Source: a virus. From it: DNA of 27,665 nucleotides. The stretch spans positions 1 to 27,665 of the IMG/VR virus record IMGVR_UViG_3300029319_005312; one strand, 5' to 3'. This document shows positions 485 to 27,665 of the stretch, piece by piece. Numbering within the stretch: position 1 is the first letter of the stretch; the number at the start of each line of letters is the position of its first letter. The translations under genes and the position numbers were made by a program. The notes under the pieces are model-generated. The model made no database searches and was not told the DNA's origin. It was given only the letters and a program-made list of their open reading frames with translations.

Positions 485-1090
485 ATGTCACACGATAGAA
501 ATATAAAATGGTTAAATGACAGGCGCATCGTATATAGAAGAGATCCTATAAATGACGTACCTACTATTGAAACCAAACAGTATAAATACTACGAAAATGG
601 TACGTATGAGTGTTATCACTTGTTTAATAGCAAGGCTAAGATAACTACATACAAATCATTGAAGTGGCACATGCTTGTATTGTATTATCTTAATGAACAT
701 GTAGATTTAAAACATGTTTTTAAATTTATAGCCGATAAACAAAACGGTTTTGTTACCTTCTTCATTAAACAGCGATTACTAGATGAAATGATAGAAGATG
801 TATTAAAACAGGGTGGCGATCCACCCGCAAACAAGCTACGCAAAGTAGTATTTAAAGACTATTCAGGTTTAGACTTGAGTGGTAAATTAAAAATTGTAGG
901 TCAATTAATAGGTAGATCAAGCATAGATAAAGAAATGATATACCAAGCTATGTTAGACTTAAACGACTGGGGTAAGAAAATTACTATTAGTCGTATTGCT
1001 GGTTTACTTAATTGCTCTACAAGAACAATACATCGCCATATGTGTGATGATTTAAAACAAGAAAAACAATTGATGAATGAAGAAGTATAA
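485..1090 (+). CDS. Helix-turn-helix protein, putative phage regulator
   Basis: A 201-residue protein whose C-terminal part (about 166-186) reads as a helix-turn-helix: ITISRIAGLLNCSTRTIHRH, with the small residue, turn and recognition-helix pattern of DNA-binding regulators. The N-terminal 110 residues are rich in Tyr, Lys and His and match no family I recognise. It lies directly upstream of, and overlaps by 14 bases, the sigma-factor gene, which suggests they are translated together and act on the same transcription programme. It could be a transcriptional regulator, or a replication-initiator-like protein with a terminal HTH. The HTH is visible; the function is inferred. Confidence 0.55.
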   Translation: MSHDRNIKWLNDRRIVYRRDPINDVPTIETKQYKYYENGTYECYHLFNSKAKITTYKSLKWHMLVLYYLNEHVDLKHVFKFIADKQNGFVTFFIKQRLLDEMIEDVLKQGGDPPANKLRKVVFKDYSGLDLSGKLKIVGQLIGRSSIDKEMIYQAMLDLNDWGKKITISRIAGLLNCSTRTIHRHMCDDLKQEKQLMNEEV

Positions 1091-1847
1091 TTTAGATAAT
1101 TATATAAGGTACAAAAACGAAGTGCAAGAGTTAACATCTAGATTACCAGAAATAACAGACGGTAATTATACTGTGTACGATGACAAACAAATGGTAACTT
1201 GTTTTTTACCGCTAGTAGAGAACGTTGCAAGGAAGTTTTCAACTAGTCAACAAGCCTCAGGTGTAATGACTATACTTGATCTGATACAAGAAGGTAACGC
1301 TGGTTTAACACTAGCCGTTGGCAAGCTTGACAGATCTTTGTTGTTAGAATCTGAAGACCAAGAAAAAACTTTAAAATCATTTTTCTCAAAACGTATCAAA
1401 GGTGCAATACGTAGAGCAGTAGATATTAATCGTGGTAACATGAGAATACCTGAACATAAGCTTAATGAAATACGTAAGAATTTTGGTCACAATAAGAAGA
1501 TGGTTGAAATGTTTTTCAATAGTATATTTTTAAGTATTGATGAAAAGCAAACAGATGTTAATGAAGACTGGGCTGCTCAGATACCTGACAAGTCAGAGCC
1601 TTACAATGTCGGCATGTTAAATCAATATCTAAAAGGTTTACTTAAAAAACATCTAAACAACAAAGAGTACGAAGTGTTACGTATGAGTTATGGTTTAGAT
1701 TGTGATAAGCACGATGCTAAGACAATAGCTAGTAAACTAGGTATACAAGGTAGTAGTGCTTATGTACGTGTTTCGCAGTTAAAAAAGCAAGCAGTACAAA
1801 AGCTTATTGATAATGTAGATTACACGCAAGTGCTTGATTATCTTTAA
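1077..1847 (+). CDS. Phage-encoded sigma-70-family factor
   Basis: A 256-residue sigma-70-like protein that would direct host RNA polymerase to phage promoters. Region 2 is clear: FLPLVENVARKF (43-54), then DLIQEGNAGL (68-77), the near-invariant DLIQEGNxGL core-binding helix, and RIKGAIRRAVD followed by RGNMRIPEH (119-127), which corresponds to the region 2.4/3.0 R-x-I-RxPxH segment. A region 4-like helix-turn-helix follows (about 196-245), with KEYEVLRMSYGLD, KTIASKLGI and YVRVSQLKKQAVQKL in the right order. It has no region 1.1 and is shorter than housekeeping RpoD of Bacteroidetes. No phage RNA polymerase is seen in the window, so redirecting the host polymerase is the natural reading. Its start overlaps the HTH gene. 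Confidence 0.85.
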   Translation: MKKYNLDNYIRYKNEVQELTSRLPEITDGNYTVYDDKQMVTCFLPLVENVARKFSTSQQASGVMTILDLIQEGNAGLTLAVGKLDRSLLLESEDQEKTLKSFFSKRIKGAIRRAVDINRGNMRIPEHKLNEIRKNFGHNKKMVEMFFNSIFLSIDEKQTDVNEDWAAQIPDKSEPYNVGMLNQYLKGLLKKHLNNKEYEVLRMSYGLDCDKHDAKTIASKLGIQGSSAYVRVSQLKKQAVQKLIDNVDYTQVLDYL

Positions 1848-10818: not shown

Positions 10819-11638
10819 ATATACAATAAAAGACATATTAGATCCAGTCGATCCTAAGAGGTTCTGGCTGCATTACTGGGGTAAAAAACATTTAGTTATT
10901 AGAAGAAATATATTTAAAACTTTATTTAAATGGAACGACTTTACTAATGTATTAAATGGTTATCCTAGAAATTTAAACCACTTACAAATATTAGATTACG
11001 ATGGTAAAGGTACTAAGTGGTGTTTAGATAAAGTAAAAAAAGGTAAATTAAAATTACCTATGTTAAAAAAGAAAGAAATATTAGACTTATGGAAGTCTGG
11101 TAAAACATTTGTTCTTTCAATGGCAGAATATACTAAACAAGACTTCGTTGAAATATGCGATGAGTTTGAAAGATATTTTGAAAGAGGTCAAGTTAATATA
11201 TATTGTTCAAGTAAAAAAGATGCTGTTGGTTTTCCAGCGCATTGCGATAGTACAGAAAACTTTTTGTTTCATACAGAAGGTAAAGTTAAATGGACTATAT
11301 ATGATAACTCTGCGCCTGAAAGAAAACCTGGAAAAGTTATTGATGAGTTTGTTTTGGAAGCTGGAGATTTATTGTACATACCACAGTACAGATACCATAA
11401 AGCCGAATCACTTACGCCTAGAATATCTATAAGTATTCACTTTCCGAACAAACGAAATCAATCATTAAAGAAGTTTCAGATAACTAAAAAAGGTGCAAAA
11501 AGAGATGGTTGGTATGATTGGACACCTGAAGATCTATACTATAACAAAAAAGGTCATAGTACTAGAGATGTGCCTAGAAAATTTAGGATGGGTGGAACAC
11601 AATGGAAGAAAACTTATTTTAACAATTTAAAAAAATGA
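10811..11638 (+). CDS. JmjC-type cupin 2-oxoglutarate/Fe(II) oxygenase-like protein
   Basis: A 275-residue protein with a JmjC/cupin_4-like core. The Fe(II) triad is visible as His144 and Asp146 in FPAHCDSTENF and a distal His196 in IPQYRYHKAES; GKVKWTIYDN (157-166) carries the Lys/Trp strand expected for 2-oxoglutarate binding. The N-terminus (FWLHYWGKKHLVIRR) resembles the entry of ribosomal-oxygenase-like proteins. Substrates in the family are proteins or tRNA; here the target is unknown. The C-terminal 60 residues are basic and Trp/Tyr-rich. It overlaps nrdA by 8 bases and heads the sugar/modification cassette. The fold is quite sure, the substrate not. Confidence 0.75.
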   Translation: MGKYTIKDILDPVDPKRFWLHYWGKKHLVIRRNIFKTLFKWNDFTNVLNGYPRNLNHLQILDYDGKGTKWCLDKVKKGKLKLPMLKKKEILDLWKSGKTFVLSMAEYTKQDFVEICDEFERYFERGQVNIYCSSKKDAVGFPAHCDSTENFLFHTEGKVKWTIYDNSAPERKPGKVIDEFVLEAGDLLYIPQYRYHKAESLTPRISISIHFPNKRNQSLKKFQITKKGAKRDGWYDWTPEDLYYNKKGHSTRDVPRKFRMGGTQWKKTYFNNLKK

Positions 11639-11835
11639 ATAGAGTAGCAATAGTAGAAGCTCCATACAATATTAGAAACTCAAGGTTGATGGCTAATTTA
11701 AATAACGCGTTTTGCGCTAAATGGGTTATTGACAACGTAAAGAAGATAGAGGATATTGAAACAAAAGATTATGATTGTTTAGTATTGTTTGGTGATAGAA
11801 AAAAATTACAAAAGATAGTAAATGAAAGCAGGTAA
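11635..11835 (+). CDS. Hypothetical 66-residue protein
   Basis: Starts with an ATGA overlap on the JmjC gene and ends 14 bases inside the next gene. It begins MNRVAIVEAPYNIRNSRLMA and has a second strand-like segment YDCLVLFGDRKK (45-56), so it looks like half of an alpha/beta Rossmann-type domain. No complete active site is visible. It may be a stand-alone small protein, or the remnant of a longer sugar enzyme. Translational coupling argues it is expressed. Confidence 0.6.
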   Translation: MNRVAIVEAPYNIRNSRLMANLNNAFCAKWVIDNVKKIEDIETKDYDCLVLFGDRKKLQKIVNESR

Positions 11836-12166
11836 GATATGGGGTAAAACAGAAATGATCCATAAAAACGGCGTCATGGAGTTTCACCGAATAGAATTTA
11901 ATAAAGGATTTAAATGCTCTGAACACGAGCATAGATTTAAATGGAACGGATTTTTTGTAGAGTCCGGTAAAATGCTTGTCAGAGTATGGCAAGAAGATCA
12001 GGGTCTTGTTGATGAAACAATACTTGAAGCAGGTGATTTTACTATGGTAAAACCTGGTAAGATACATCAGTTTGAAGGTATTGAAGATGGTGTTGCTTTT
12101 GAATTATATTGGGCTGAGTTTAATCACGATGATATAATTAGAAGAACATCTGGTACTAAGATATGA
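11822..12166 (+). CDS. Small single-domain cupin
   Basis: A 114-residue cupin. Motif 1 is GFKCSEHEHRFKWNGFFVES, with the H-x-H pair, and motif 2 is AGDFTMVKPGKIHQFEG, with PxGxxH. These residues bind a metal. Single cupins near sugar genes are often sugar-phosphate isomerases, epimerases or tautomerases, but many are of unknown role. It precedes kdsB with an ATGA overlap, which suggests a task in the same sugar route, though nothing fixes the substrate. The protein is slightly acidic and lacks a signal peptide. Confidence 0.75.
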   Translation: MKAGKIWGKTEMIHKNGVMEFHRIEFNKGFKCSEHEHRFKWNGFFVESGKMLVRVWQEDQGLVDETILEAGDFTMVKPGKIHQFEGIEDGVAFELYWAEFNHDDIIRRTSGTKI

Positions 12167-12801
12167 AAAATATAGCGGTAGTTATACCAGCAAGACTGAA
12201 CAGTACTAGAATCAAACACAAAATGTTGATGAAGTTCGATGATGAACCTTTGATACGTCTTGTGTTTGATAAGGTACGTATGATGGGCTTTGATACATTT
12301 GTAGCAACTGATAGCAAACGTATAGCTAAACTGTTTCCTATTAAGTGGTGTATACAAACAGGTAAAGCTGACAATGGTACACATAGATTGTCTAAACGAG
12401 TTGTATTAGATTTAGTAAATAGTTACGATTACATATTAAATATACAAGGTGATATGCTTGATATAAATCTAGATACAATAAAACCTATAGTAAAAGCATT
12501 AAATCAAAAAGATGTAGTCTGTTTAACTGCTTACACAAAAGGTGCTAAATCAGATGATGTCAAAGTTATACATCAAAATGGTAAAGCAATGTGGTTTACA
12601 AGATCTGATATAGGTTACGGTGATAGACACTTAGGTATATATGCTTATAAACCTTATTTGTTAAAAGCATATAGAGTTATGAAAGATAAATATAAATCAG
12701 AAAATCTAGAGCAAAATAGGATACTAGGTTTATATGATATTGACGTAGTTGAAACTACATATGATGGTATAGAAGTTAATACTTATAATGATATAAAATG
12801 A
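12163..12801 (+). CDS. kdsB: 3-deoxy-manno-octulosonate cytidylyltransferase (CMP-Kdo synthetase)
   Basis: A 212-residue nucleotidyltransferase that joins CTP and Kdo to give CMP-Kdo and pyrophosphate. Family marks: VVIPARLNSTRIKHKML (6-22, the CTP-binding signature), FVATDSKRI, TGKADNGTHRLSKRV, YILNIQGDM with the metal Asp, WFTRSDIGYGDRHLGIYAYK and a late ENLEQNRIL. The usual QGDEPL is QGDMLDI here and the protein is about 35 residues shorter than E. coli KdsB, so it is divergent but keeps core residues. It neighbours kdsA two genes on, completing the two committed activities of CMP-Kdo formation; KdsC and KdsD steps would rely on the host. A related CMP-sugar specificity (such as CMP-nonulosonate) cannot be excluded. 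Confidence 0.85.
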   Translation: MKNIAVVIPARLNSTRIKHKMLMKFDDEPLIRLVFDKVRMMGFDTFVATDSKRIAKLFPIKWCIQTGKADNGTHRLSKRVVLDLVNSYDYILNIQGDMLDINLDTIKPIVKALNQKDVVCLTAYTKGAKSDDVKVIHQNGKAMWFTRSDIGYGDRHLGIYAYKPYLLKAYRVMKDKYKSENLEQNRILGLYDIDVVETTYDGIEVNTYNDIK

Positions 12802-13427
12802 AATACGCAGAAAAATACAAAGCGATACACGAAGGCGCTGAATATAAAATAAAAGATCCAATTACAGGCGAGTTTAGAATAAAAAAAGGTGAATATGGTA
12901 ATGGTACAGGTTTTAAAACTGTATTAAAACCTCTTAAAAAGTTTATTGATGAACATCCTGGAGCTATGGTATTAGATTACGGTTGTGGATCTGGTAAAGC
13001 CTGGGATCATAAGCTAGCTATTTACAATGGTGAAAAATATACTAAACCGGGTAAGCGTGTTCCTGATAAATACGACGCTATGACAATGACACAATATCTT
13101 GGCGAAAACTTACAAGGTTTTTACAGGTACGATCCTTTTCACCCTAAATATTACATGAGACCACCAGCTATTAAGTTTGATTTAACAATTGTTAATGATG
13201 TTATAGAGCATGTGCCACTAGAAGAAATACCAGCATTGCTAAGAGATGTAGCTGATTTAACTTGTACTTGTGGCGCTATACTAATGTCAATACCAGCAAG
13301 TCCTTCGTATGCACATTTTATGGACGGTGAAAATATGCATTGTACGTTAATGCCAAGAGATGAGTGGAAAAAATTATTAAGAAAATATATACCAAAACAT
13401 AAACTAATAATAAACTTTACACCATGA
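12798..13427 (+). CDS. Class I SAM-dependent methyltransferase
   Basis: A 209-residue methyltransferase. AMVLDYGCGSGKAWDHK (55-71) is motif I for S-adenosylmethionine, and FDLTIVNDVIEHVPLEEI is the motif IV/V region with the 'D.iEH' pattern of methyltransferases that act on small molecules or sugars. There is no DPPY or NPPY, so a DNA amino-methylase is unlikely, and no PC motif, so not a cytosine-C5 enzyme. It sits between kdsB and kdsA with ATGA overlaps at both ends. A sugar O-methyltransferase (for example of Kdo, whose methylated forms cap some O antigens) would fit, but this is inference. Confidence 0.75.
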   Translation: MKYAEKYKAIHEGAEYKIKDPITGEFRIKKGEYGNGTGFKTVLKPLKKFIDEHPGAMVLDYGCGSGKAWDHKLAIYNGEKYTKPGKRVPDKYDAMTMTQYLGENLQGFYRYDPFHPKYYMRPPAIKFDLTIVNDVIEHVPLEEIPALLRDVADLTCTCGAILMSIPASPSYAHFMDGENMHCTLMPRDEWKKLLRKYIPKHKLIINFTP

Positions 13428-14176
13428 AAAAACCAATATTAATAGCTGGACCGTGTAGTCTAGAAGGTAGAATACAAGCTCATGAAATATCTAGTAAATG
13501 CGAAGAGTTAGCAGATAAGTATGGCTTTGATTATTATTTTAAAGCATCGTTTGATAAAGCTAATAGAACATCTGTAAACTCTAAAAGAGGTATTGGTATA
13601 GATAAAGCTATAGATATATTTGCTGAACTAAAAGAATTAGGTGGTTGTAAGATTACAACGGATATACATGAACCTTGGCAAGCAGAAAAATTAGCTGATG
13701 TTGTAGATGTTATACAGATACCAGCTTATTTATGTAGACAAACTGATTTATTAGTTGCTGCAGGTCATACATTTAAAAACGTTAATATTAAAAAAGGACA
13801 GTTTATAAATGGTAGCAATATGGTACACGCTGTTAATAAAGTTAAAAGCACAGGTAATAATAATATTATGCTAACTGAAAGAGGTAGTATGTTTGGTATG
13901 GGTGATCTTGTTGTAGATTTTAGACAGATCGTAGATATGAAAGAATTAGACGTGCCAGTTATAATAGACTGTACGCACTCAACACAAAGACCTAATTCAG
14001 GTAGCACAACGGCTGGTCAACCGCGCTATGCTATACACATTGCAAAAGCTGCAAAAGCAGTTGGTGTTGATGGTTACTTTTTTGAAGTACACGAAAATCC
14101 TAGCGCTGCATGGAGTGACGGGTCTAATATGATTAAGTTAGATAAATTTGAAGAAATATTAAAACAATTAGTATGA
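13424..14176 (+). CDS. kdsA: 3-deoxy-8-phosphooctulonate synthase (Kdo-8-P synthase)
   Basis: A 250-residue enzyme condensing phosphoenolpyruvate with arabinose-5-phosphate. Matches run along the whole chain: LIAGPCSLEG, YFKASFDKANRTS, CKITTDIHEPWQAEKLADV, VIQIPAYLCRQTDLL, NIKKGQF, MLTERGSMFG, LVVDFRQI and FFEVHENPSAAWSDG. The KASFDKANRTS loop separates KdsA from DAHP synthase. The Cys in AGPCSLE, where E. coli KdsA has Asn, marks the metal-dependent type known from Aquifex. The length is close to full. Kdo-8-P synthase is normally a host lipopolysaccharide enzyme; finding it in a phage operon is notable. Confidence 0.92.
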   Translation: MKKPILIAGPCSLEGRIQAHEISSKCEELADKYGFDYYFKASFDKANRTSVNSKRGIGIDKAIDIFAELKELGGCKITTDIHEPWQAEKLADVVDVIQIPAYLCRQTDLLVAAGHTFKNVNIKKGQFINGSNMVHAVNKVKSTGNNNIMLTERGSMFGMGDLVVDFRQIVDMKELDVPVIIDCTHSTQRPNSGSTTAGQPRYAIHIAKAAKAVGVDGYFFEVHENPSAAWSDGSNMIKLDKFEEILKQLV

Positions 14177-14829
14177 GAGTATTTATAGGGCATGATAGTA
14201 GATACCCAGACGCTACTAAAGCATGCTATAATTCGATTAAAAAGTATAATAAAGATATTAAAGTAATACCTTTGTATAAACATAAGTTAGAGAAAAAAGA
14301 TATATATAATAGATCAAAATCTACAGGTGAATCAACAGAATTTTCGTTTACTAGATTTTATGTACCGCTTATGTCTGCTTATAAAGGTTTATCTATGTTC
14401 TGTGATAATGATTTTATATTTAGAGATGATGTTGCTAAAGTGTTTGATTATTTAAAACAAGATGATTTAGTAGCTTGTGTTAAACACGAGTACTATGATA
14501 TTAAAAGCACTAAAATGAACGGTATTGTTAACAAGTCATATCCTAGAAAAAATTGGAGTTCATTAATGGTTTTTAACAACGAAAAATTAAAAGACATTTT
14601 AACAAAAGAATATTTAGATAATGCTAGTGCTGCTGATTTACACCAATTAGCTTGGGCTGAAAATAAAATAAGTGAAATAGATGGTACTTGGAATCATTTA
14701 GTAGGTGAACAACCTTACTCTGAAGAAAATCCAGCTAAAGGTATACACTTTACAAATGGTGGACCTTGGTTTGAAGAATATAAAGACTGTCAATTTGCAG
14801 ATGAATGGAGAAAGATATTAGGAAAATAG
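14173..14829 (+). CDS. GT8-like glycosyltransferase
   Basis: A 218-residue GT-A-type transferase. It starts MRVFIGHDSRYPDATKACYN, as in small GT8-like proteins that open with a '(I/V)(F/Y)IG.D.R...A..V...SI' strand, then STEFSFTRFYVP (54-65), and FCDNDFIFRDDV (77-88) with the D-x-D motif (Asp78, Asp80) that holds the metal and nucleotide-sugar. WSSLMVFNN and HFTNGGPWFEEY are further family-like segments. It would transfer a hexose from a UDP- or similar sugar. There is no membrane segment. It overlaps kdsA by 4 bases and the next transferase by 25. The acceptor is unknown. Confidence 0.75.
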   Translation: MRVFIGHDSRYPDATKACYNSIKKYNKDIKVIPLYKHKLEKKDIYNRSKSTGESTEFSFTRFYVPLMSAYKGLSMFCDNDFIFRDDVAKVFDYLKQDDLVACVKHEYYDIKSTKMNGIVNKSYPRKNWSSLMVFNNEKLKDILTKEYLDNASAADLHQLAWAENKISEIDGTWNHLVGEQPYSEENPAKGIHFTNGGPWFEEYKDCQFADEWRKILGK

Positions 14830-15647
14830 TAAAAGACAAATCAGTTATATTTGTTGGTAATTCTGTAGAAATAATGAAGCATGAACATGCTAAGTTTATA
14901 GAAAGCCACGATATAGTTGTTAAGTTTGGTAGAGCATTAGAAGCTACACCGTTGCAAGAAAAATCACTAAGTAGCAGGGTTGATGTATGGGTTACCGGTC
15001 AGTTTAGATCTCATGCATTTAGAAAAATGAAAGATCATTTTAAACCTGGTGGTAAGTTTGAAAATACACATATATTATTAAATAGATCAAGAGGTAACTT
15101 TCATTTAAAAGAGTTTGTTATTGAAAAACACATGTGTCCTCATTTAATAAAATATGGTTATCAAGAAATGTATAGTGATAAAGAAATTATTGATACTATG
15201 AAAGTTTTTGATAGAGATGTTATAGGCACTGATCTTAGACCATCAAGTGGTTTTTTAACTATACTATGGTTTATAGAAAAAGTTAAAACATATAAAAGCT
15301 TGTCATTAATAGGCTTTGACTTCTTTACAAAATCAACACCAGCTAAAAGAGTTGGTTATAATAAAAAATCTAAAAAATCAAATATTAGTGCACACGATCC
15401 GCATAGCTGGCATTTACCTATATATTTAAGACCAGCAAGTGCTCATGATACTTATCTCGAAGAACAATTTGTTTCTTGGTTAACAAGAACAAATCAAGTT
15501 ACTTGGCATATATTAAGTGATTTAAAAAAGAGAAGTATTAAGTATACAGGCTGGGCAAAGAACTTGCCAATGATAATAACAGCCTCTAATCAAAGAACGA
15601 AATATTACAAATCCAGAGTGCAACCAACTCAGCTAAAACCTCAATAA
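14805..15647 (+). CDS. GT29/sialyltransferase-like glycosyltransferase
   Basis: A 280-residue protein with the motif order of GT29 sialyltransferases. The sialylmotif-L-like part is KSVIFVGNSVEIMKHEH...SHDIVVKFGRA (12-44, with Gly18-Asn19). The motif-S-like part is RPSSGFLTILWFIEKV (145-160), leading to LSLIGFDFF (166-174). The VS-like part is HDTYLE (214-219), the His-x4-Glu of the catalytic motif. These enzymes use CMP-sialic acid, and plant GT29-like proteins have been proposed to use CMP-Kdo. With kdsA and kdsB in the same operon, CMP-Kdo is the natural donor to suspect. No membrane anchor is seen, unlike Golgi enzymes. The 3' end is overlapped by a minus-strand gene. Confidence 0.7.
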   Translation: MEKDIRKIVKDKSVIFVGNSVEIMKHEHAKFIESHDIVVKFGRALEATPLQEKSLSSRVDVWVTGQFRSHAFRKMKDHFKPGGKFENTHILLNRSRGNFHLKEFVIEKHMCPHLIKYGYQEMYSDKEIIDTMKVFDRDVIGTDLRPSSGFLTILWFIEKVKTYKSLSLIGFDFFTKSTPAKRVGYNKKSKKSNISAHDPHSWHLPIYLRPASAHDTYLEEQFVSWLTRTNQVTWHILSDLKKRSIKYTGWAKNLPMIITASNQRTKYYKSRVQPTQLKPQ

Positions 15648-17196: not shown

Positions 17197-17469
17197 TTAA
17201 CATCTCCATCTTCTACGTGCTGCTCTACCTCTTGGTCCTTTCCAATTTTTAGATCTAGCACAAAATGATTTTCTTCTTTTAGCAGCTTTGCTGCCAGGTT
17301 TAACTTTACCTGTTACAGCTGTTTTTAATTTACTACCAGGATTTTTACGTCTATAAGCCGCAACACCTTTTTTAGTCATACCAGCGCCTTCTTTTACAGT
17401 TCTAAAGTTTCTGTTCTTACCTTTGGTAGTTTTTCTTACGTCTGGTTTTCTTTTTCTTTTAGCTGGCAT
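17197..17469 (-). CDS. Very basic phage protein, DUF6321-like
   Basis: A 90-residue, Lys/Arg-rich protein. VKEGAGMTKKGVAAYRRKNP (about 25-44) is followed by GSKLKTAVTG, then KPGSKAAKRRKSFCARSKNW and a terminal RGRAARRRWRC. This 'GAGMTkKGVaaYRrkNPGSKLKTAVT...KRRkSFCAR' pattern is widespread in marine phages and I connect it, with some uncertainty, to DUF6321. It would bind nucleic acid. The TAA of the endolysin gene meets its ATG at 17469. Confidence 0.75.
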   Translation of the reverse strand: MPAKRKRKPDVRKTTKGKNRNFRTVKEGAGMTKKGVAAYRRKNPGSKLKTAVTGKVKPGSKAAKRRKSFCARSKNWKGPRGRAARRRWRC

Positions 17470-17930
17470 TATATTACCATGTATTTAGTTTTACCGCCTT
17501 CACGATAAGCTTTTAAACATCTATTTCTATTTTCGTCTGGGTGTACATAGCTAACATGCACCCAAGCTGGATTACTATCATCACCAAACTCCCATATCAT
17601 TTGGTCGTAATCTAAATTTTCTTTAATCCACTTATACATATCAGCATTAGACATGTTGCCATACGTGTCATCAATATCCATTGCTTGACCGTGACAATGC
17701 TGTGATTTTGCTGATCCACCGATCGCAGCGTTAAGTTCTGGTCCACGATAAAACGAATTTATCTTTATAGGACCTCCTACGTGCTCTCTAAGAGGCTCAA
17801 ATACTTTTTCTGCAATAAGCTTCATGTTTTCTAAATGAGACTCAGAGGGATCATTTTTTAAACCTAGCCTTAAAGCAGTAATACTATGTATTCCTTCTTT
17901 ATAAGATACGTGTTTACTTATTCTATCCAT
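17469..17930 (-). CDS. Endolysin, M15A-type zinc D,D-carboxypeptidase/endopeptidase
   Basis: A 153-residue peptidoglycan peptidase that would cut stem-peptide bonds at lysis. The zinc motif is SQHCHGQAMD (76-85): S-x-H-x-x-G-x-A-x-D with His78 and Asp85, and AWVHVSY (122-128) supplies His125. INSFYRGPELNAAIGG (57-72) is the usual region upstream of the motif in peptidase_M15_3. There is no signal peptide, so it depends on a holin; the holin-like genes on the same strand are candidates. The length is normal for single-domain phage M15 enzymes. The ATG at 17930 overlaps the preceding mini-gene by 8 bases. Confidence 0.88.
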   Translation of the reverse strand: MDRISKHVSYKEGIHSITALRLGLKNDPSESHLENMKLIAEKVFEPLREHVGGPIKINSFYRGPELNAAIGGSAKSQHCHGQAMDIDDTYGNMSNADMYKWIKENLDYDQMIWEFGDDSNPAWVHVSYVHPDENRNRCLKAYREGGKTKYMVI

Positions 17931-18066: not shown

Positions 18067-18403
18067 ATTTTTTTTTATTAAATAAATTTATAGTCACGCT
18101 TATTGTTATACCGCCAAGCGCTGTAGCGGCTAAATCTTTTGTATCAAACTTATTTTTGCTTTCAGTTGCATCAAGAAGTTCTTTTGCTGTTCCTGCTAAT
18201 AAAGCAGTACCTATGCCTGCTAGCATGGCTTTCTTTTTATCTTTTGTTTTTTGCCAGACATAAGTATAACCAGTAGCTCCAGCTATAGTACCTGCGGCAA
18301 AATGTAGTTGTTTATCTCTTGGTATCTGAGCGTTAGCAAAGCCCACAATACCTATTACAAATAGGACACATAATTTAAAATTTACTTGCGTTATTAATTT
18401 CAT
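18050..18403 (-). CDS. Exported YfiM-like protein
   Basis: A 117-residue protein from ATG 18403 (MKLITQVNFKLCVLFVIGIV), chosen over 18424 because it gives a classic signal peptide, ending GFANA|Q. The mature part has IPRDKQLHFAAG, the 'DK.LHF.AG' pattern of YfiM-like envelope proteins, then glycine-rich hydrophobic stretches (AGATGYTYVW, MLAGIGTALLAGTAKEL, LAATALGGITISVTI) that could be membrane-embedded. In Bacteroidetes, Gln after the cleavage site is common. It may act in the envelope at lysis or alter the host surface. It overlaps the previous gene by 29 bases. Confidence 0.7.
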   Translation of the reverse strand: MKLITQVNFKLCVLFVIGIVGFANAQIPRDKQLHFAAGTIAGATGYTYVWQKTKDKKKAMLAGIGTALLAGTAKELLDATESKNKFDTKDLAATALGGITISVTINLFNKKKYVEIN

Positions 18404-18785
18404 TGATGGCTTCTTGAATATCATTTAAATCTGCTGGTAACATAAGATCTAAACCAGCTTTAAAAACAGTTTCTTTTATACCGTCTTTAAATATTATTAA
18501 CGTGGGTGCCATACGAACCCTATATTTCTTTTTAGCTTCTGGAGCCTTAGCTATATCAATTCTATAATATACAGCATCTTCTAACTTATCCCACTCTGCA
18601 AAACAATTAGCTTCATTAAACTTAGCCCAAAATTCTACAATAACAGGTTTTTTATCATCATCACCAAATGCATTATGGCTATTTATTATGTCCTCAAAGT
18701 TATTATCTGTAATCCAATATTTTTCAGGAACATCTGATTGACTATATGATATAAGTGGAATTAACATTAAAATTAAGTACTTCAT
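18375..18785 (-). CDS. Exported thioredoxin-fold protein lacking the CxxC site
   Basis: A 136-residue protein with signal peptide MKYLILMLIPLISYS|Q. The thioredoxin fold shows as KPVIVEFWAKFNEANCFAEW (46-65), VYYRIDIAKAPE (72-83), and VRMAPTLIIFKDG (90-102) with the cis-Pro94. The normal WCxxC is FNEAN (56-60), so both active cysteines are replaced by Asn; only Cys61, just after the site, remains. Disulfide chemistry is therefore unlikely, and a binding or chaperone role in the periplasm, or mixed disulfides through Cys61, are options. It overlaps the YfiM-like gene and follows the coiled-coil membrane gene by 2 bases. Confidence 0.75.
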   Translation of the reverse strand: MKYLILMLIPLISYSQSDVPEKYWITDNNFEDIINSHNAFGDDDKKPVIVEFWAKFNEANCFAEWDKLEDAVYYRIDIAKAPEAKKKYRVRMAPTLIIFKDGIKETVFKAGLDLMLPADLNDIQEAINEINNASKF

Positions 18786-19071: not shown

Positions 19072-20265
19072 TTATCTAAATGTGTAGTTAATTCCAAAGT
19101 TTGAGTTAAATATTTCTGAGTCCCAGAATTTAGTATATTCACCTTCAATAAACACACCAATTGATTTGCTTATTTTAACACCAAATACCATACCAGCTTG
19201 ATAATCACTCCATTGTTCACCTTCTAGTAAATTATTATGACCACCTTCACTCCAACTGTTTCTATGTAAGTAGCTAAAGTCTTCATTACCTTGCACATAT
19301 TTGTGGTATGGTAATATCCAGTTACCAAACGCGTGAAACCAAAAGTTGTTTTTGTAGTGATAAAAGTCAAAACCGACGATTGGTGCAATCTCGGCAAAAG
19401 CATCAAGCTCAGCCCATGCTTCTTCATTATATCGATTTAATAGACCAGGCATTACGAGATCTCTAAACTGTGCATCTGTCCAAGCAACAATATCACCTTC
19501 TGGATTAGTCCAATACCAATCACTAACAAAATCACCAGTTTCATCTGTTCCTGAATAATACCAATCATCGTATCCATACTCGAAACCCAAAGTGTACCAG
19601 TAATTAACAGTTCCTCCGTCTTCATCTGTTTCATTTAACCATATCTCTACAGGATTATAACCGTAAGGACGTTGATGTGTTCTGTATATTGCACCAGCAG
19701 ATATACTAAATTTCTTACCAATAGGTAACCTGGCTCTTAATTCACCAGATGTATATTGAAAACCAACATTACCAGCTTCTCTAGCTTCAAACTTAGCTAT
19801 ATGATAATCACCAGTATGTCTTATAAATAATCTTTTATTGTCGAACTCGTTACCGTTTCTTCTTTCTTTTTCCCAATGTAGCATGTATTCTAAACCTTGA
19901 ACGGCTGATGTAGGTGCTGATAAAGCTACTTGTTTTTCTATTTTGTTATTACCAGTCCAGAAATTACCAGGTTTTACTTCATAACCAAATCTAGCTAATT
20001 TACGTATACCAAACCCATATCTGTAATCAAACGGGTGATATATTGTTTGATCTACAACATCTGGTATTGCGTAGAAATCATCAGGGTTTGTACGTATGAA
20101 ATATTTAGGTTGTTCTTCTTTTGCATTACCTATGTTACCGGCAGCATAAAAAGTTCCGTACTTTAAAAAATCTTTATAAACTTCTTTAAAAAAGTTTTTC
20201 TTTTCTTCTTGTGCAATAGAATTAAAGCTTATAAATAATGCTAATATTGTTAAAATTTGTTTCAT
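19072..20265 (-). CDS. Phage-encoded predicted outer-membrane beta-barrel protein
   Basis: A 397-residue protein with signal peptide MKQILTILALFISFNSIA|Q. The mature part is rich in aromatic, alternating-polarity strands, for example KFSISAGAIYRTHQ, WYTLGFEYGYDDWYY, IVGFDFYHYKNNFWFHAFGN and SIGVFIEGEYTKFWD, and it ends SNFGINYTFR. An aromatic residue near the C-terminus after a final strand is the targeting signature of outer-membrane barrels. Acidic, Tyr/Trp-rich loops (residues about 215-260) suggest exposed surface turns. No enzyme motif is seen. Possible roles: receptor masking or superinfection exclusion, envelope weakening at lysis, or a virion component. It lies between the giant virion protein and the lysis genes. 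Confidence 0.75.
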   Translation of the reverse strand: MKQILTILALFISFNSIAQEEKKNFFKEVYKDFLKYGTFYAAGNIGNAKEEQPKYFIRTNPDDFYAIPDVVDQTIYHPFDYRYGFGIRKLARFGYEVKPGNFWTGNNKIEKQVALSAPTSAVQGLEYMLHWEKERRNGNEFDNKRLFIRHTGDYHIAKFEAREAGNVGFQYTSGELRARLPIGKKFSISAGAIYRTHQRPYGYNPVEIWLNETDEDGGTVNYWYTLGFEYGYDDWYYSGTDETGDFVSDWYWTNPEGDIVAWTDAQFRDLVMPGLLNRYNEEAWAELDAFAEIAPIVGFDFYHYKNNFWFHAFGNWILPYHKYVQGNEDFSYLHRNSWSEGGHNNLLEGEQWSDYQAGMVFGVKISKSIGVFIEGEYTKFWDSEIFNSNFGINYTFR

Positions 20266-20315: not shown

Positions 20316-23300
20316 TTAATTAAGTCTCTTTCTTTTATTTGTGGTTTTGACATTTTTGTCTTTTGATTTACCACTTGTAGTATCATCATCTTGTATGTTA
20401 AGCTGCCAGTCTCTCCAACCTAAAGCTAAAGCTATTCTTTGCCAAGACTCAGCTTCTGAATTTATTATTTGGTCTAAGCTTTCTATTTTTTGATATACTC
20501 TATCAGTAGGTATATTTGTTGCTGCTGATATTACGTTAGCATACGATTCTATTATAGGACTAGTAGGATCTAATAAGCTTTTTTCAAGTATTTCTTTTTT
20601 ATTAAACTTGTAAGTAGTTAAAGCAGAATATGTTTTTCTAGCTTTACTACCAAGTGGTGGTGAAACATTAATACCTTCTATTAATACGTAAGCATAATCT
20701 GCTCTTCCACCTGGTTTTTCATTTTCTTTTTGAAACTTAAGTACCATATTTTTTAATGTAGCTACTACAGCTCCTTTTATACCCATACCTCTTAATATAG
20801 AATCAGCCATACCATTAGCTATACCAGAGTATCTTTGTCTTTCTTTTTCGTCTGTTTCATCATCGTCGAATAACATTGCAAATAACGCTTGTTGCATACT
20901 GTGGAATAATATGTTTTGCATACCCATATAATATGTTATTCTGCTCATTTGTATTATTCTACTTTTTGCTAAGCTATTATATTCACCAGTAACAGGATCG
21001 TAAACTCTTCTGTTATTTAAAAGATCTAAAAACTCTTTTTTAGATTTTCTATTATACTGCATCGTAACGTTGTTAAACGCTAGTAAAACTCTACCAAGCG
21101 GACTTGCTTGTTCTTGTGATATAACATCTGGTCTACCTGATTGCTGTGTAGTTTCTGCAACTTCTTGCATGTCAATAAAAGCTTTTTGTTCAGCTTCTTT
21201 CTTTGTCATACCTTGCTTAATATACGTGTTAGTTCTGTTTCTATATAAACTAGCACCACCTAAAGCAATAGCAAAGCTATCTGCCATTTGTGTAGGTAAA
21301 AATCCTTTTTCTAACAACAATGATATTGCCCTTCTAACTGGGTTACGAGAACCTCTTACAGCATCAGATATTTCTTGCCAGTTAACATCTTGCTGCATAC
21401 CACCTCTTCTTTGTTTCAAAAAGTCTGAGTTAAATATAAAACCAAAATCTTTCCAAAACTGTTTTTGATTACCAAAAGCAGCTCCAGCGGCTAACATATT
21501 ATTATCGCTATAGTTTACAAAGTTTGTAAAAGATATTGTCTGTAATACCGCTGATCTAGTATTTAAAAACATTATAGTACCAGTAGCACTATTTATCCAG
21601 TTCATAGTTCTATTTACTAGTCTATTATTTCCAAAAACTCTATTAGTGCCTTTTTCAATTCTATATAAAATATCTTCTAACGCTTCTCTAAAATCACTAC
21701 CGTATACAGCTTGTATTTTATTCATATTTTCTGGAGAAAGTATGACATTTTTATTATCAATAAATTCTTGTAAATATTCGCTTCTTTTTAAATATTGATT
21801 TATTTCCTGTATATCTAAACCTATACTACTACCTAACCAGTCATCTTGTGGAGCTGGCCAACCTTCTTCTAACTTAGTTATCTTTACAAGATCATTAGCA
21901 TAGGCTTTCATTTCAGGGTTACTGTTAACTATTTTAACTAAAGCTTTAACATCTGTTTTTGACAAGCCTGGTATTTTCATTCCTTGTTTTGTCCACATGT
22001 AAACTCTTACAGCAACATCATTTGTAAAATTATTATAACCAGTGTCTTTTTTCAAAGTGTTAGAAACGTTTTTATACTTTTTCTTTAAAGCCTCATAGTC
22101 ATTACGTAAGGCTTGTTTAGCAGCGTTTAAAGCATTAATACCTCTAGCAAGTGGTCTTACTAAATTATCTTCAAAAAACATTTTATGCTGCTCACCTTGT
22201 TTACCTTTACCCATAAACTGATATAATAAACCTAAAAAGTCTTCTGCAGAAGGTTCTATTATTATATTCCATCTACCTTTAAAAGCGCCTCTTGCTTTTG
22301 CTGCTGCGTCAGAAAATCTAGTCTCAGATCTTATACCTTTTGTTTCCTCTAGTATTTTGTTAAATCTATCGTTTAAAGATTTGTTCATTTTAGCCTGTTG
22401 TACATCAGACTTGACATCAGCAATATCTAAAACTTTTTGTACAGCTTCGACATTTTTAATAGCATCATCTGCAAAATAAAAATCATTATAACCTTCAGCG
22501 ACTTTATTCGTTATCCAATCAGCTTTTGCTTGAGCCGTGCCGTTTTCTAGACCAGTTATATTTTCTAGTTTTAAGTTCAGCCCTAAACCTTTAGCAAATT
22601 GTTGTATTGCTCGCGCCGATGCTTGTGGTCTTGCTGTTAATATAAAAATATCTTTATTGCCAAATTTAGCTTGTCTTTTTAATGCTAAATCAAACAAAGG
22701 ACCTTTTCTACCTTTAACAACTTTATTAAATTCTACAAAATCAAATGTAGCTCCTTGTGATTCTAAGTTAGCAGACTCAAGCGCAAACTCAGCTGGTGTT
22801 ATTTTTTTAGTTGTACCATCAGGCATATTTACTATAACTCTACTATTTGATATAGCTACAGTGTCATCAAAGTCTAGCACAGTAATACCTTTTCTAGTTT
22901 TATCTATTTTATTTATTTCGTATACAGCTTTATCAAGTGTTCTAGCTTTATTTAAAGATCTGTTTTTCTTGCTTAATTCAACATTTGCTGTATTTTTAGC
23001 AACTTGCTCTGATCTATGTATTCTAAATTTAACACCTGTTGTGCTATACACATTATTTATATCACTCTGTTTAAGGTTATTAATTCTATCAACAGATGTA
23101 GTAAAATTAGTTTTACCTAATTCATTATCTAAATTACCAGTTATATCTGCAAACGAAGCCATTTGAGTATATTCGTTTAGATTATCATCTACCCAAGCAT
23201 CTGTATCAATATCTTCTGCTGTAGTTATAACATAAGATAATTGACCCATTGTGTTTACATTAACCTTTAAATGCTCACCATATAACCTAGTTCCTTTTGC

Positions 23301-26300
23301 TTTTAACTCTTTTGCATCTCGTTGTTTACCGTCTATTGTTAAATAATTCCATGTAGTTAAAGATTTAATACCTAAAGCAGCATTGCTTTGACCTTGTAAT
23401 ATAGCTAAAGCACTGTTTATTTCTATTTTACCCTCTTGTACTAATTTTCTAAGTTCTTTTAATATAAATTTTAAAACAACAGTATTAGCATCGTTTATTG
23501 CTTCTATTTGACCTTGATATTCTGCTAATTTAGCTAGCTGAGCATTTTTACCACTAACGCTATATATGTCTTTCATTATATCAAACATTACGCCTTTTTG
23601 ACTATTGTAAGAACGCATGTCTATTAATGCTCCTATTTGATTTCCTTCTTCATCTAAAGATAATAATTCATCAGGTAAAGTTTGATTATTATCCTTTAAT
23701 AACTGCTCTATTTCATTTCTTTGATTAAAATAATCACCTGTAGCACCTGGTATAATATTACCATCAGCATCTTTTTTTGATGCCGCTGGATCCATAAATC
23801 TTCTTATATATAACAACATTGCTATTTCAGAAGAAACATTATCGTTATTTTTGTTTTTATACAAGTTATATATAATCCTGCCTATAGGTGATTTAGCTAT
23901 TGTTTTATTGTCTTTATGTACTTGATCTTTATCAACCTTACTAAATACATAATTATCCGTTATATCTTTAGGCACACCATTTCTAAACATAGCTGCCTTA
24001 AAACCTGTGGCAGCATAAGCACCTTTTTGCTCTAACTCTCTAAAATGTTCTATAAACTCAACAGGATATTTTTTAAGAGCTTTGTGGTTCCAAACGTCAT
24101 CAGTAGCAAAATCATCAATAGTGTCATTGTTTTTATATATAATAGCAGCTATAGCATTAAAATCTTTTATAAACTGTTTACCATTATTCATGTATTGATC
24201 AGCTATTCTAGATTTTAATACCCTGTTCATTTTAGCGTTACCTCTATCAAGCTGTCTACCTATTTCAGCCACGTAGTTATCCTGTAGTGTAAATTTTCTT
24301 ATTTCAGCATTTCTATTTAACGCTTCCGTTAAAGGACCTTCAACCTTTAAATCATTTCTAAATATATCTAAACCTATTTCAGCTGCTATTTGTTGTGATA
24401 AACTTTCTTTTTTAGCAGCAATAATTTTATCATTTTTAAAGAATATATCTGTCCACTGCTCATCTGTAATAGAGTTTTCTACATTATCTTTTCTTCTCAT
24501 TATCTGTGGACCAGATGTCATACCTGTTTCTTTGGCTGAAGCTCTATCTATTTTTTTACCTTGCCAATCAGATACAAATTCACCGTTAACTTGTTTTTCT
24601 ATAGTTTGTGGTGCAAATCTAGATAAAAAGCTAGTCGTCATGTTTTCTAATATAGCTTTTTTATTTTTAAGTAAAAAATCTCTAAACTGATTATCTTTTA
24701 TACCACCCATAGCTTTTCTAATGTCTATGTCTGCTTGTTTCATTATAGCTTTTCTAAGCTCAGAAACAAATGGTGTTACTGTTTTGTTTTTACTTATAGC
24801 TTCGTATATACTATTGTTTAATGTAGTTATTTGTATCTTTAATTTATCTGTAATAGATTTTATAACTTTATCATCAAACATTTTTGATTCTAACAATGTG
24901 GTGTAAGAAGCATCTATTTCGTTTTTAATATCTTGCTCTAGATCAAATTCTGTGTCTGCAACTTGTTTAGCGCCTTCACTTACAGTTACATCATCTTCAA
25001 ACTGTTCTTTTGTCGCAGCTTTTCTACCTAAAACACCATCAGCTTTTCTTCTTACAAAACCGTTTATCCAACCTGTTAAGTTTAACTTTTCGTTTTGCGC
25101 AGCCATTTCAGGATCAAAATTTCTTATATGTGGTATTAACTCTGCTACAACCTCAGATATAAAATCTTCTCTACTAAAACCAGGTAAAGCACGCATATCT
25201 TGAGTTATACTACCAGCAGCTATTTTATCTAAAGTTCCAGCTGAAAATAGTTTACTTATTGCAGCATCTGCACCACCACCGTTTTTCCACTGATCTTTTG
25301 TGGTGTTTTTATCGTATGTAGAATTTATTAAAGCTCTACTTTTTTTATCTGTTTTAGGTTGTGCAACATTTTCTTTACCTTGAAAACGTCTTATACCTTT
25401 ACCAACCTTAACACCTTCTTTTATAGCTGTTCTTTGTGCTCTTGTAAATCTACCTTTAGCAATTGATTTATTATAATCTTTTATAAAGTTATATACATCT
25501 TCTTCTGTATTGAACTCTATTTTACCAAAACCTATATCTTGCAATAATCTTCTTAAAGCATCTTTTATTTTAGTTAAAGTACCTTCTTGAAACTTTATAT
25601 CACCATAAGCTAAAGCATCTGAAAATAAAGTTAATACTTCTTCAGCTCTTGTAGCATTAGGATCGCTTTGATATAATTTTAATCTTCTATAAAAATCTTT
25701 TTTACCTTGATTATTTGTAGGTTTGCTAGTATCTAATGTATCTAATTTACTTTTTAAAGCTTCTGCTAAACCTCTTACAACATTTTTACCTGTTATTTCA
25801 CCGTCTTTTAAGTTATATAATGTATTAAATAAAGCTGCGTGTAATACTTCGTGTTGAGCTGTAAATACCTCACCAAGCTCTGCAGCTTTTTGCTCATCTA
25901 TTATTATAGTTCTACCATCAGCACTTATATAACCTGTAGCGTCAGCGTCCAAAGCTATTGATTTTTTACCTGCTTTTTCTTGAGCTTCCTTAGCATCTTT
26001 AGCAACTATATATTCTATTTCTCTGTCTAAGTCTAAACCACTTATTGCTTTACCTGCTTTTGCTGTAACATCTCTAACTTTACTTAACGCTGCTATTTTA
26101 GCTAGTTCTAAATCTATTTCTACGTTTCTATCTAATAGATCTTGTACTAGAGCTTTACCATCTTTACCAGCTTGTTCTATTTGTTTACTGTTGTTTATTT
26201 TTTCAAGAAGCAACTCTAATGCTTGCTCTCTTTTATCAGCTATGTTTTTAGGCATTGAAAAGTCTGCTTCTCTTATTTGCGCTATAGCTTCTTTCTTTTC

Positions 26301-27665
26301 AAGATATTCGTCTTGCTCAATATCACCATTTTCTAAAGCTTGATCCAACGCTTTAAATTGACTATTGTAAAAAGCTTCCATTGATTTAGGATCTAACTTA
26401 CCAATAGCTATTTTAGTAAATGCTTTTACTTCATTTACAGTTTGTTTAGCAATACCAGCACTAAAAGGAAGAAGTGTACCAATTAAACCACCAGCACCTG
26501 CAGCTTCTATATAGTTTTCACTTTTTAGATTTTGCCCAAGGTTTTTCATACGTTCATTTAGCGTTTCACCTATTGCAAACCTACTTACATCTTCAAAACC
26601 TGTTTGAAATGTTTCTGTTATACTTTCTGCTAAACCTGCTTTAAAACTATCAATACCACCTTGTCCTAATACTGGTAATACTTTTTTAAATTGACCCCTT
26701 ATTATTGATGATCCTAAATTTTTTAACAAAGCAGCACCAGCTTTAAACTGTGGTATCATACCAATTAGTTCAGCTGCTCCATAAGGTACCGCGAGCATAT
26801 TAGCTGTTTTAACATCTTCTTTCGCTTCTTCTGTTTCGTTATAGTCACTCATTAATCTAGCAACTTCTTCTCTGTTTTCAGGGTTGTTTATATAAGCATC
26901 GTCAAGATTATTTTTCTTTTTTACTTTTTCTAACACCCTATCAATATACATATCACCACCACCACTAACAGCTGTACCTATACCTAATGTAGCCATTGCA
27001 AAAGCCATTTCAGGAACCTGATCACCAAGTAACTTATATACTTCTTTCCAACCTCCACCTTCTTCAAAAACTTTTGAAAACTTAGCCGCTTCAAAATTAG
27101 AGTCAGTAGCTATTCTGTCTAATATTTGCAAAGCATCCATGTTACTTTCAACTTTGTTTTCTTTTAGTTGCTCTAGTTGTACTTTTTTAGCCTCACCGTA
27201 GGTCATCTTTTTATTGTAACCATAAGCACCTTGCTGTCTAACATCTTCAGTATCCATAACTCTTTTACCTTCTTCGTTTGTACTGACTATGTGACCTCTG
27301 TCATTTATATAAACAATTGAGTCATCATTTATTTCGCCTGACTCATATCTTTTATTTATTTTATCTGCATTAGCTATAAGAGGGTTATATATCTTGTTTG
27401 ATTTAAATTTAGCATTAAAATCTATCATTCTAGATTTTATTCTTTTACCACCACCAAACATATGATAGCTAAATATATTATCTGTGTCAAAAGCTCCTAT
27501 ATTTATACCTAATATTTCATTTGGTGAATCTAAGCCTAACATATCTCTAGCTGCACCTTGTTGTTTTTCTTGATCAGCTAATATAACTTGCATTTGCTCG
27601 TGAAAACCTTTTACACGATCTAAAACTCTTATATCAGAAAATACAAGTGTATTAACAAAATCACC
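20316..27665 (-). CDS. Giant multi-domain polyvalent virion protein (5' end outside window)
   Basis: The frame stays open through the window edge: the 72 bases beyond the first in-window ATG (27593) encode 24 more residues without a stop, so at least 2449 residues are present and the start is missing. It is a giant protein of the kind described as polyvalent proteins, thought to enter the host with phage DNA. Domains seen, N to C: Gly/Ala-rich hydrophobic segments, an HExxH zincin motif (25839-25853), a sigma-region-2-like stretch (about 25020-25180), a complete HAD phosphatase (about 22420-22890), long helical regions, and a C-terminus with ASPLGRVLLAFNNVTMQYNR and ALALGWRDWQL, ending in a Lys-rich tail. 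It heads the minus-strand unit seen here, followed after 50 bases by the outer-membrane barrel gene. Confidence 0.85.
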   Translation of the reverse strand, partial: GDFVNTLVFSDIRVLDRVKGFHEQMQVILADQEKQQGAARDMLGLDSPNEILGINIGAFDTDNIFSYHMFGGGKRIKSRMIDFNAKFKSNKIYNPLIANADKINKRYESGEINDDSIVYINDRGHIVSTNEEGKRVMDTEDVRQQGAYGYNKKMTYGEAKKVQLEQLKENKVESNMDALQILDRIATDSNFEAAKFSKVFEEGGGWKEVYKLLGDQVPEMAFAMATLGIGTAVSGGGDMYIDRVLEKVKKKNNLDDAYINNPENREEVARLMSDYNETEEAKEDVKTANMLAVPYGAAELIGMIPQFKAGAALLKNLGSSIIRGQFKKVLPVLGQGGIDSFKAGLAESITETFQTGFEDVSRFAIGETLNERMKNLGQNLKSENYIEAAGAGGLIGTLLPFSAGIAKQTVNEVKAFTKIAIGKLDPKSMEAFYNSQFKALDQALENGDIEQDEYLEKKEAIAQIREADFSMPKNIADKREQALELLLEKINNSKQIEQAGKDGKALVQDLLDRNVEIDLELAKIAALSKVRDVTAKAGKAISGLDLDREIEYIVAKDAKEAQEKAGKKSIALDADATGYISADGRTIIIDEQKAAELGEVFTAQHEVLHAALFNTLYNLKDGEITGKNVVRGLAEALKSKLDTLDTSKPTNNQGKKDFYRRLKLYQSDPNATRAEEVLTLFSDALAYGDIKFQEGTLTKIKDALRRLLQDIGFGKIEFNTEEDVYNFIKDYNKSIAKGRFTRAQRTAIKEGVKVGKGIRRFQGKENVAQPKTDKKSRALINSTYDKNTTKDQWKNGGGADAAISKLFSAGTLDKIAAGSITQDMRALPGFSREDFISEVVAELIPHIRNFDPEMAAQNEKLNLTGWINGFVRRKADGVLGRKAATKEQFEDDVTVSEGAKQVADTEFDLEQDIKNEIDASYTTLLESKMFDDKVIKSITDKLKIQITTLNNSIYEAISKNKTVTPFVSELRKAIMKQADIDIRKAMGGIKDNQFRDFLLKNKKAILENMTTSFLSRFAPQTIEKQVNGEFVSDWQGKKIDRASAKETGMTSGPQIMRRKDNVENSITDEQWTDIFFKNDKIIAAKKESLSQQIAAEIGLDIFRNDLKVEGPLTEALNRNAEIRKFTLQDNYVAEIGRQLDRGNAKMNRVLKSRIADQYMNNGKQFIKDFNAIAAIIYKNNDTIDDFATDDVWNHKALKKYPVEFIEHFRELEQKGAYAATGFKAAMFRNGVPKDITDNYVFSKVDKDQVHKDNKTIAKSPIGRIIYNLYKNKNNDNVSSEIAMLLYIRRFMDPAASKKDADGNIIPGATGDYFNQRNEIEQLLKDNNQTLPDELLSLDEEGNQIGALIDMRSYNSQKGVMFDIMKDIYSVSGKNAQLAKLAEYQGQIEAINDANTVVLKFILKELRKLVQEGKIEINSALAILQGQSNAALGIKSLTTWNYLTIDGKQRDAKELKAKGTRLYGEHLKVNVNTMGQLSYVITTAEDIDTDAWVDDNLNEYTQMASFADITGNLDNELGKTNFTTSVDRINNLKQSDINNVYSTTGVKFRIHRSEQVAKNTANVELSKKNRSLNKARTLDKAVYEINKIDKTRKGITVLDFDDTVAISNSRVIVNMPDGTTKKITPAEFALESANLESQGATFDFVEFNKVVKGRKGPLFDLALKRQAKFGNKDIFILTARPQASARAIQQFAKGLGLNLKLENITGLENGTAQAKADWITNKVAEGYNDFYFADDAIKNVEAVQKVLDIADVKSDVQQAKMNKSLNDRFNKILEETKGIRSETRFSDAAAKARGAFKGRWNIIIEPSAEDFLGLLYQFMGKGKQGEQHKMFFEDNLVRPLARGINALNAAKQALRNDYEALKKKYKNVSNTLKKDTGYNNFTNDVAVRVYMWTKQGMKIPGLSKTDVKALVKIVNSNPEMKAYANDLVKITKLEEGWPAPQDDWLGSSIGLDIQEINQYLKRSEYLQEFIDNKNVILSPENMNKIQAVYGSDFREALEDILYRIEKGTNRVFGNNRLVNRTMNWINSATGTIMFLNTRSAVLQTISFTNFVNYSDNNMLAAGAAFGNQKQFWKDFGFIFNSDFLKQRRGGMQQDVNWQEISDAVRGSRNPVRRAISLLLEKGFLPTQMADSFAIALGGASLYRNRTNTYIKQGMTKKEAEQKAFIDMQEVAETTQQSGRPDVISQEQASPLGRVLLAFNNVTMQYNRKSKKEFLDLLNNRRVYDPVTGEYNSLAKSRIIQMSRITYYMGMQNILFHSMQQALFAMLFDDDETDEKERQRYSGIANGMADSILRGMGIKGAVVATLKNMVLKFQKENEKPGGRADYAYVLIEGINVSPPLGSKARKTYSALTTYKFNKKEILEKSLLDPTSPIIESYANVISAATNIPTDRVYQKIESLDQIINSEAESWQRIALALGWRDWQLNIQDDDTTSGKSKDKNVKTTNKRKRLN
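22420..22892 (-). other. HAD-family phosphatase domain in the giant protein
   Basis: All four HAD motifs occur in order: motif I DFDDT (22874-22860, nucleophile Asp and general-acid Asp), motif II Thr in IFILTARP (22637-22635), motif III Lys in AQAKADWI (22526-22524), and motif IV in YFADDAIKN (22469-22464). The cap between motifs I and II is short, as in polynucleotide 3'-phosphatase or acid-phosphatase types. The catalytic set is complete, so it should be active. The substrate is unknown. Confidence 0.8.
25020..25180 (-). other. Sigma-70 region 2-like segment in the giant protein
   Basis: The segment FSREDFISEVVAELIPHIRN, then FDPE, LNLTGWINGFVRRKADGVLG, follows the order of sigma region 2: a 'D(L/F)I.E....L...i..FDP' helix, then a 'W/I....R..' helix. 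The Asp at 25166-25164 and the Trp at 25070-25068 correspond to the DLIQEG and region 2.3-like positions. Similarity is by pattern only. Confidence 0.45.
25839..25853 (-). other. HEXXH zinc-protease motif in the giant protein
   Basis: The codons at 25853-25839 (minus strand) give H-E-V-L-H within FTAQHEVLHAALFNTL. A typical zincin helix, preceded by an ISADGRTIIIDEQKAAELGE strand region. The third ligand is not assigned. It may process the giant protein or attack host proteins after injection. Confidence 0.6.

Follow-up and report, generated by a model that had tools for sequence, protein, structure and literature searches.

A divergent sigma-70 region 2 domain in a giant virion-type phage protein and its possible docking on host RNA polymerase

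Introduction

Phages that lack a polymerase of their own are usually thought to begin transcription through host sigma factors at strong early promoters. Sigma-like domains also occur in other proteins, and that of PhyR mimics sigma toward NepR. Phage polyvalent proteins are giant multidomain proteins that carry HExxH motifs and are encoded with virion genes (PMC5512222, Iyer et al. 2017); the paper that describes them covers zincin processing and the jump-starting of transcription and never mentions sigma (PMC5512222). The N4 virion RNA polymerase and similar ejected giants are delivered proteins that are HExxH-linked and aimed at first transcription (PMC5512222; PMC12633501). In Bacillus, RsoA is a small cellular protein that carries a sigma domain 2 without a domain 4 and has a known domain 4 partner; its work with SigO shows that a separate sigma domain 2 protein can function as its own polypeptide, and the sigma-like domain of PhyR has another role (PMC8103513).

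Here we analyse one virus record of 27,665 bases (the window), which contains a giant open frame with a sigma-like segment. The source is a phage of about 60–70 kb whose cultured relatives infect Flavobacteriia. Like the polyvalent proteins, the giant is multidomain, carries an HExxH motif (zincin-like by motif), belongs to a family encoded with virion genes and has relatives that bear zeta-toxin-like kinase domains; as far as we searched, a sigma domain appears to be a new cargo for such proteins. It resembles N4 in being a putative delivered giant, but N4 delivers a whole polymerase, whereas the window giant would supply at most a sigma domain for the host polymerase. The segment has the helices and the register of sigma-70 ECF region 2 (PF04542, TIGR02937) but sits in a virion-type protein of 2,500–3,600 amino acids, with only a tentative region 4. 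Within the open-licence papers searched, we found nothing relevant on sigma factors that are injected or carried in virions. Both the domain and this type of delivered protein are known; what we did not find described is their combination.

A family of giant virion proteins

The giant reads to the end of the window and has lost its 5′ end there (Table 1). Complete frames of its relatives span about 2,500–3,600 amino acids, and in alignment residue 148 of the window giant pairs with residue 448 of the relative L001, which implies that the window frame probably lacks about 300 residues of the N terminus. The Met at 27593, from which the preliminary description counted residues, is thus unlikely to be the start. 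We number residues on the minus-strand open frame throughout.

Table 1 Features of the giant protein and of the separate sigma factor, in window coordinates
Feature	Residues	Position	Strand	Basis and remarks
Giant polyvalent protein	2,449 in window	20316..27665	-	Open frame; 5′ end lost at window edge
HEVLH (HExxH) zinc metallopeptidase-like motif	605-609	25839..25853	-	H, E, H invariant in 17-member alignment
Sigma-70 region 2-like domain	~795-886	25008..25283	-	Pfam/NCBIfam matches of relatives, hhalign, AlphaFold2, Foldseek, VIA
Helix equivalent to sigma 2.1/2.2, REDFISEVVAELIPHIR	832-848	25122..25172	-	AlphaFold2 helix 46-62 of model; hhalign register
Long helix equivalent to sigma 2.3/2.4, LTGWINGFVRRKADGVLGRK...	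863-893	24987..25079	-	AlphaFold2 helix 77-107 of model; hhalign register
Degenerate region-4-like helix-turn-helix (tentative)	about 926-959	24789..24890	-	SigV/sigma70-ECF extension; DUF1492 weak match; region-4 enrichment in relatives
Complete separate sigma factor (regions 2 and 4)		1077..1847	+	PHROG 351 E 3.2e-18; Pfam Sigma70_r2 and r4 below cut-off

In the relatives, terminase, portal and virion structural genes lie upstream and the giant is the last gene; this order is taken from the relatives, as the upstream side of the window giant lies beyond the window. Cultured Flavobacterium and Cellulophaga phages have the same gene order, with a giant ‘structural protein’ (the annotation of the records) at the end. 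These proteins, Elemovirus gp18 (3,694 amino acids) and gp101 of Cellulophaga phage phi38:1 (1,691 amino acids), share N-terminal homology with the family giants (best E 1e-16 and 6e-11, respectively). The link was found through the N-terminal parts of relatives; a tblastn search of cultured phages with the conserved C terminus of the giant gave no convincing match. The two cultured proteins resemble the family in operon position, N-terminal sequence and structural annotation but differ in that neither has a sigma-like module at a meaningful E-value and gp101 has no HExxH. In a paper that includes phi38:1 proteomics, gp101 goes unmentioned. Calle, a phage that shares its genus with phi38:1, is podoviral in morphology (PMC8776804). 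Homology and synteny together support the assignment of the window giant to a family of putative giant virion proteins.

Some relatives carry further domains. The giants of four A1 relatives contain a zeta-toxin/AAA_33 kinase-like domain (E 5.5e-15) and those of two A1 relatives a weak Tox-REase-5 match, which we read from their sequences as probable variable effector cargo. In the window giant, a HAD-phosphatase-like pattern is visible by eye at residues about 1620-1770 (about 22350-22810, minus strand; VLDFDDTVAISNS ... FILTARPQ), where Pfam is silent.

Sequence homology to sigma region 2

The preliminary description had singled out positions 25020-25180 as a segment that resembles the core-binding part of sigma factors. 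The sequence that it named, REDFISEVVAELIPHIRNFD, is present and begins at residue 832, or 808 when counted from the Met at 27593; REDFISEVV starts at the same residue. WINGFVRRKAD follows at residues 866-876, as described. The interval corresponds to residues 829-882 and covers the counterparts of the sigma 2.2 and 2.3/2.4 helices, but the domain begins earlier, near residue 795.

On the window giant alone, Pfam gives no Sigma70_r2 match and NCBIfam gives weak sigma matches (SigV, E 0.0013; sigma70-ECF, E 0.0079). By itself this sequence has diverged too far for a call, and the case for homology therefore rests on relatives. Scanning viral contigs with the residues around the segment yielded 26 relatives, a second subfamily found with L136 comprises 32 loci, and an iterated search gave 117 matches, 73 of them distinct. 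A pattern recurs in the local alignment, as in L003 (‘EEAISDVILRVYSAGDIAKFDGRGTLYGYVNGRIGFRIKDML’), and the second subfamily is exemplified by ‘VPVDFVDKVYTELTSHIRNFNPETNDNLFGWINSQIGNKAGNV’.

Among 50 family members, Sigma70_r2 is the commonest Pfam match (15 of 50; best E 1.6e-6). One relative, L350, exceeds the curated cut-off of PF04542 (28.3 versus 24 bits); the window protein lies below it, so that membership in region 2 at curated strength comes through the family. The NCBIfam sigma70-ECF model matches 28 of the 50 (best E 1.3e-7), and the other NCBIfam matches are mostly to sigma families. Against PDB sequences, a profile from an initial, small alignment (A3) found no sigma factor, and that of the larger family (A4) had a sigma factor as its top match (E 7e-4). 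The module had no match in searches of phage or plasmid records.

We also approached the family from the cellular side, with a region-2 profile built solely from Escherichia coli RpoE and RpoD and 29 sigma factors from four gammaproteobacterial genomes. Across the 73 giants, the best six domain matches, and eight of the best ten, fell in the module, which makes up 2.4% of the residues; on the window giant itself the profile matched residues 832-897. Module windows ranked at a median 97th percentile against 1,395 background windows of the same proteins (p ~1e-14, a value that overstates independence because the sequences compared are related), and in 60 within-window shuffles the mean never came near the real mean. 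Aligned by hhalign with the family, the cellular region-2 alignment scored 32.6 (probability 69%), against a maximum of 19.8 in 300 column shuffles, and placed RpoE ‘DVVQEAFIKAYRALDSF..WLYRIAVNTAKNYL’ on ‘DFISEVVAELIPHIRNFDP..LTGWINGFVRRKADGVL’.

Predicted structure of the domain

AlphaFold2 with 19 relatives gave a model of low confidence (mean pLDDT 54.6), for which sigma region 2 nonetheless accounted for nearly all of the 50 PDB matches listed. With 50 relatives and the domain alone, the model was confident (block-mean pLDDT 92–97 over model residues 1–90). Foldseek comparison of this model with the PDB returned sigma factors as all 50 of the matches listed, with probabilities of up to 1.00 and target TM scores of up to 0.72, and the matches listed by VIA were sigma factors or sigma complexes throughout (best Z 7.7). 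On a small helical domain, neither Foldseek E-values near 0.1 nor a VIA Z of this size would be enough by itself; the structural case holds because the matches are unanimous and agree with the sequence evidence. In a structure search of a viral library, the named matches near the top were mostly phage sigma factors.

The structural comparison with sigma region 2 that the preliminary description proposed thus found its match in the AlphaFold2 model, Foldseek and VIA, and the likeness that it noted is borne out as homology by the profile matches of the relatives and the predicted fold. We conclude that the segment is a real but divergent sigma-70 region 2 domain, as judged by sequence profiles and predicted structure.

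Core-binding residues and a possible region 4

In the hhalign register, D834 corresponds to D403 of sigma70, S837 to Q406, E838 to E407 and W866 to Y430; the first three of these sigma70 positions are the core-binding residues of region 2.2 that we compared. The D403 position holds D or E in 38 of the 50 family members. At the position of E407, which we take to be a core-binding residue of sigma70, the 50 members have K (12), D (10), E (8) or G (7), with alanine or others elsewhere; given this variation, core binding in the standard mode is not assured, and the family differs here from sigma-70 ECF region 2. The window giant keeps acidic residues at both positions, unlike the family as a whole. 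Like RpoE and other ECF sigma factors, most members lack an aromatic residue at the positions of sigma70 W433 and W434. Divergent members retain the motif D/E-F-h...ELhpHIRNFNPE...LxGWINSQ, which suggests a specific surface or a fold requirement.

Downstream of the module, a region-4-like helix-turn-helix is weakly hinted at by sequence. On the window giant, the weak SigV and sigma70-ECF matches extend through region 4, and a weak Pfam match to DUF1492 near residues 867-956 (E 0.05–0.14) overlaps the tentative helix-turn-helix. In relatives, a region-4 profile is enriched directly downstream of the module and not in the next stretch, and L019 carries a clear helix-turn-helix there (‘FTEVAEKLGVPVETIKELTKLVQ’). 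The region-4 match spans only about 20 residues and passed its composition control narrowly, and none of the Pfam region-4 families was found.

The separate sigma factor and other genes of the window

The phage also encodes a separate sigma factor at 1077-1847, as the preliminary description had it, and the protein matches the sigma factor family PHROG 351. We considered this protein as a close relative of the module and rejected the idea, as its profile shows no preference for the module (p 0.25); in hhalign the two score 17.8, at shuffle level, in a consistent register. A 70-kb phage (G002, with L029/L117) has a separate sigma factor 97% identical to that of the window. Its giant reaches only 49% identity with the window giant even across the conserved C terminus, and a single-sequence comparison around the module gave no match. 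From these sequences, the giant gene appears either to change much faster than its neighbours or to be exchanged.

Other genes of the window include, at 12163-14176 on the plus strand, a cytidylyltransferase (PF02348, E 1.6e-22), a methyltransferase and a DAHP/KDO-8-P synthase family protein (PF00793, E 5e-60), which by sequence look like a KDO-type surface sugar pathway. Past them, at 14173-15647 (plus strand), two proteins without a Pfam match are glycosyltransferase- and sialyltransferase-like by eye. A JmjC/cupin-like oxygenase-type protein (PF08007, E 1.6e-15) and then a small cupin protein are encoded at 10811-12166 (plus strand). Directly downstream of the giant, at 19072-20265 on the minus strand, lies a gene for a protein with a signal-peptide-like start and no Pfam match that, by eye, may be an outer-membrane protein. 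A thioredoxin-like protein, also with a signal-peptide-like start (18375-18785, minus strand), is encoded between the giant and an M15 peptidase that is an endolysin candidate (17469-17930).

Proposed role of the module

We favour the reading that the giant carries a virion-delivered module that docks on RNA polymerase, and give it a probability of roughly 0.5 on the basis of sequence, models and analogy. The giant carries a sigma domain 2 fold, assigned by homology and structure prediction, about 200 residues past its HExxH motif; homology and synteny support its late production as part of the virion. As is the case for other giants of virions, it may be injected and enter the host with the DNA, where its metallopeptidase part may cleave it into pieces. 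The sigma-like piece could then compete with host sigma by docking on the clamp helices of beta-prime in the host polymerase, and either lower host transcription or lead the enzyme to the incoming phage DNA before the sigma factor of 1077-1847 is made. For a sigma domain 2 on its own, docking on host RNA polymerase would be the simplest function, by analogy with SigO–RsoA, in which a sigma domain 2 likewise occurs on a polypeptide without domain 4. The fold and its homology, the order of HExxH and then module in 39 of the 73 giants, the position in a virion operon, the N-terminal homology to annotated structural proteins of cultured phages and the acidic D834 and E838 all favour this reading, and suggest that an RNA-polymerase-docking module may be delivered together with the phage DNA. 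The module mostly lies 160–235 residues past HExxH where it is detected; about half of the giants are without a detectable module, as are the cultured members annotated as structural, and these gaps count against this reading together with the variable E407 position.

The sigma-like domain might instead belong to a working ECF-like sigma factor, in which region 2 and the degenerate region 4 guide the host polymerase to the promoters that the phage uses first; the virion would then bring one sigma activity and the protein of 1077-1847 a second, later one. The alignment of the SigV and sigma70-ECF profiles through region 4 of the window giant speaks for such a protein, as do the region-4 enrichment confined to the stretch just past the module and the clear helix-turn-helix of L019. 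With Pfam silent on region 4, a matched part of some 20 residues, a narrow composition control and a variable E407 equivalent, we regard it as rather unlikely. A version in which the giant cuts itself after entry and thereby frees a unit of region 2 and degenerate region 4, which then redirects the host polymerase to the earliest phage promoters, is likewise doubtful. The two timed sigma activities that the preliminary description envisaged belong to the reading of a working sigma factor and share its rather low probability.

Readings in which the domain leaves RNA polymerase alone must also be weighed against docking. Divergence, the many members that have lost the E407 equivalent, the fixed distance to HExxH and the many relatives without a detectable module would all suit a structural or spacer module of sigma descent, with no role in transcription, between the peptidase and the remaining virion protein; the motif retained in divergent members argues against this, and we consider it unlikely. 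Sigma mimicry, in which the domain would bind a host anti-sigma factor and free host sigma or tie up the regulator while leaving RNA polymerase untouched, has precedents among sigma-like domains (PMC8103513) and fits the variable core-binding position, but no anti-sigma partner was identified, and it seems to us improbable. Least credible by far is a chance likeness of an ordinary helical stretch to sigma region 2: the window sequence alone is weakly recognized, small helical folds recur and the VIA Z lies within the range of common arrangements, yet profile libraries, the PDB sequence search, shuffles and the structure search all pick out sigma factors.

Significance

The docking reading makes a definite prediction, namely that one domain of about 100 residues binds RNA polymerase. 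The module is spread through 39 of 73 sampled giants of one marine phage group, with further loci besides. Were the giant to act as a virion-carried sigma, it would be a smaller counterpart of the injected polymerase of N4. If the particle carries a sigma domain, these phages would have a third route to starting transcription, beside the injected polymerases of N4 and injected modifying enzymes such as T4 Alt.
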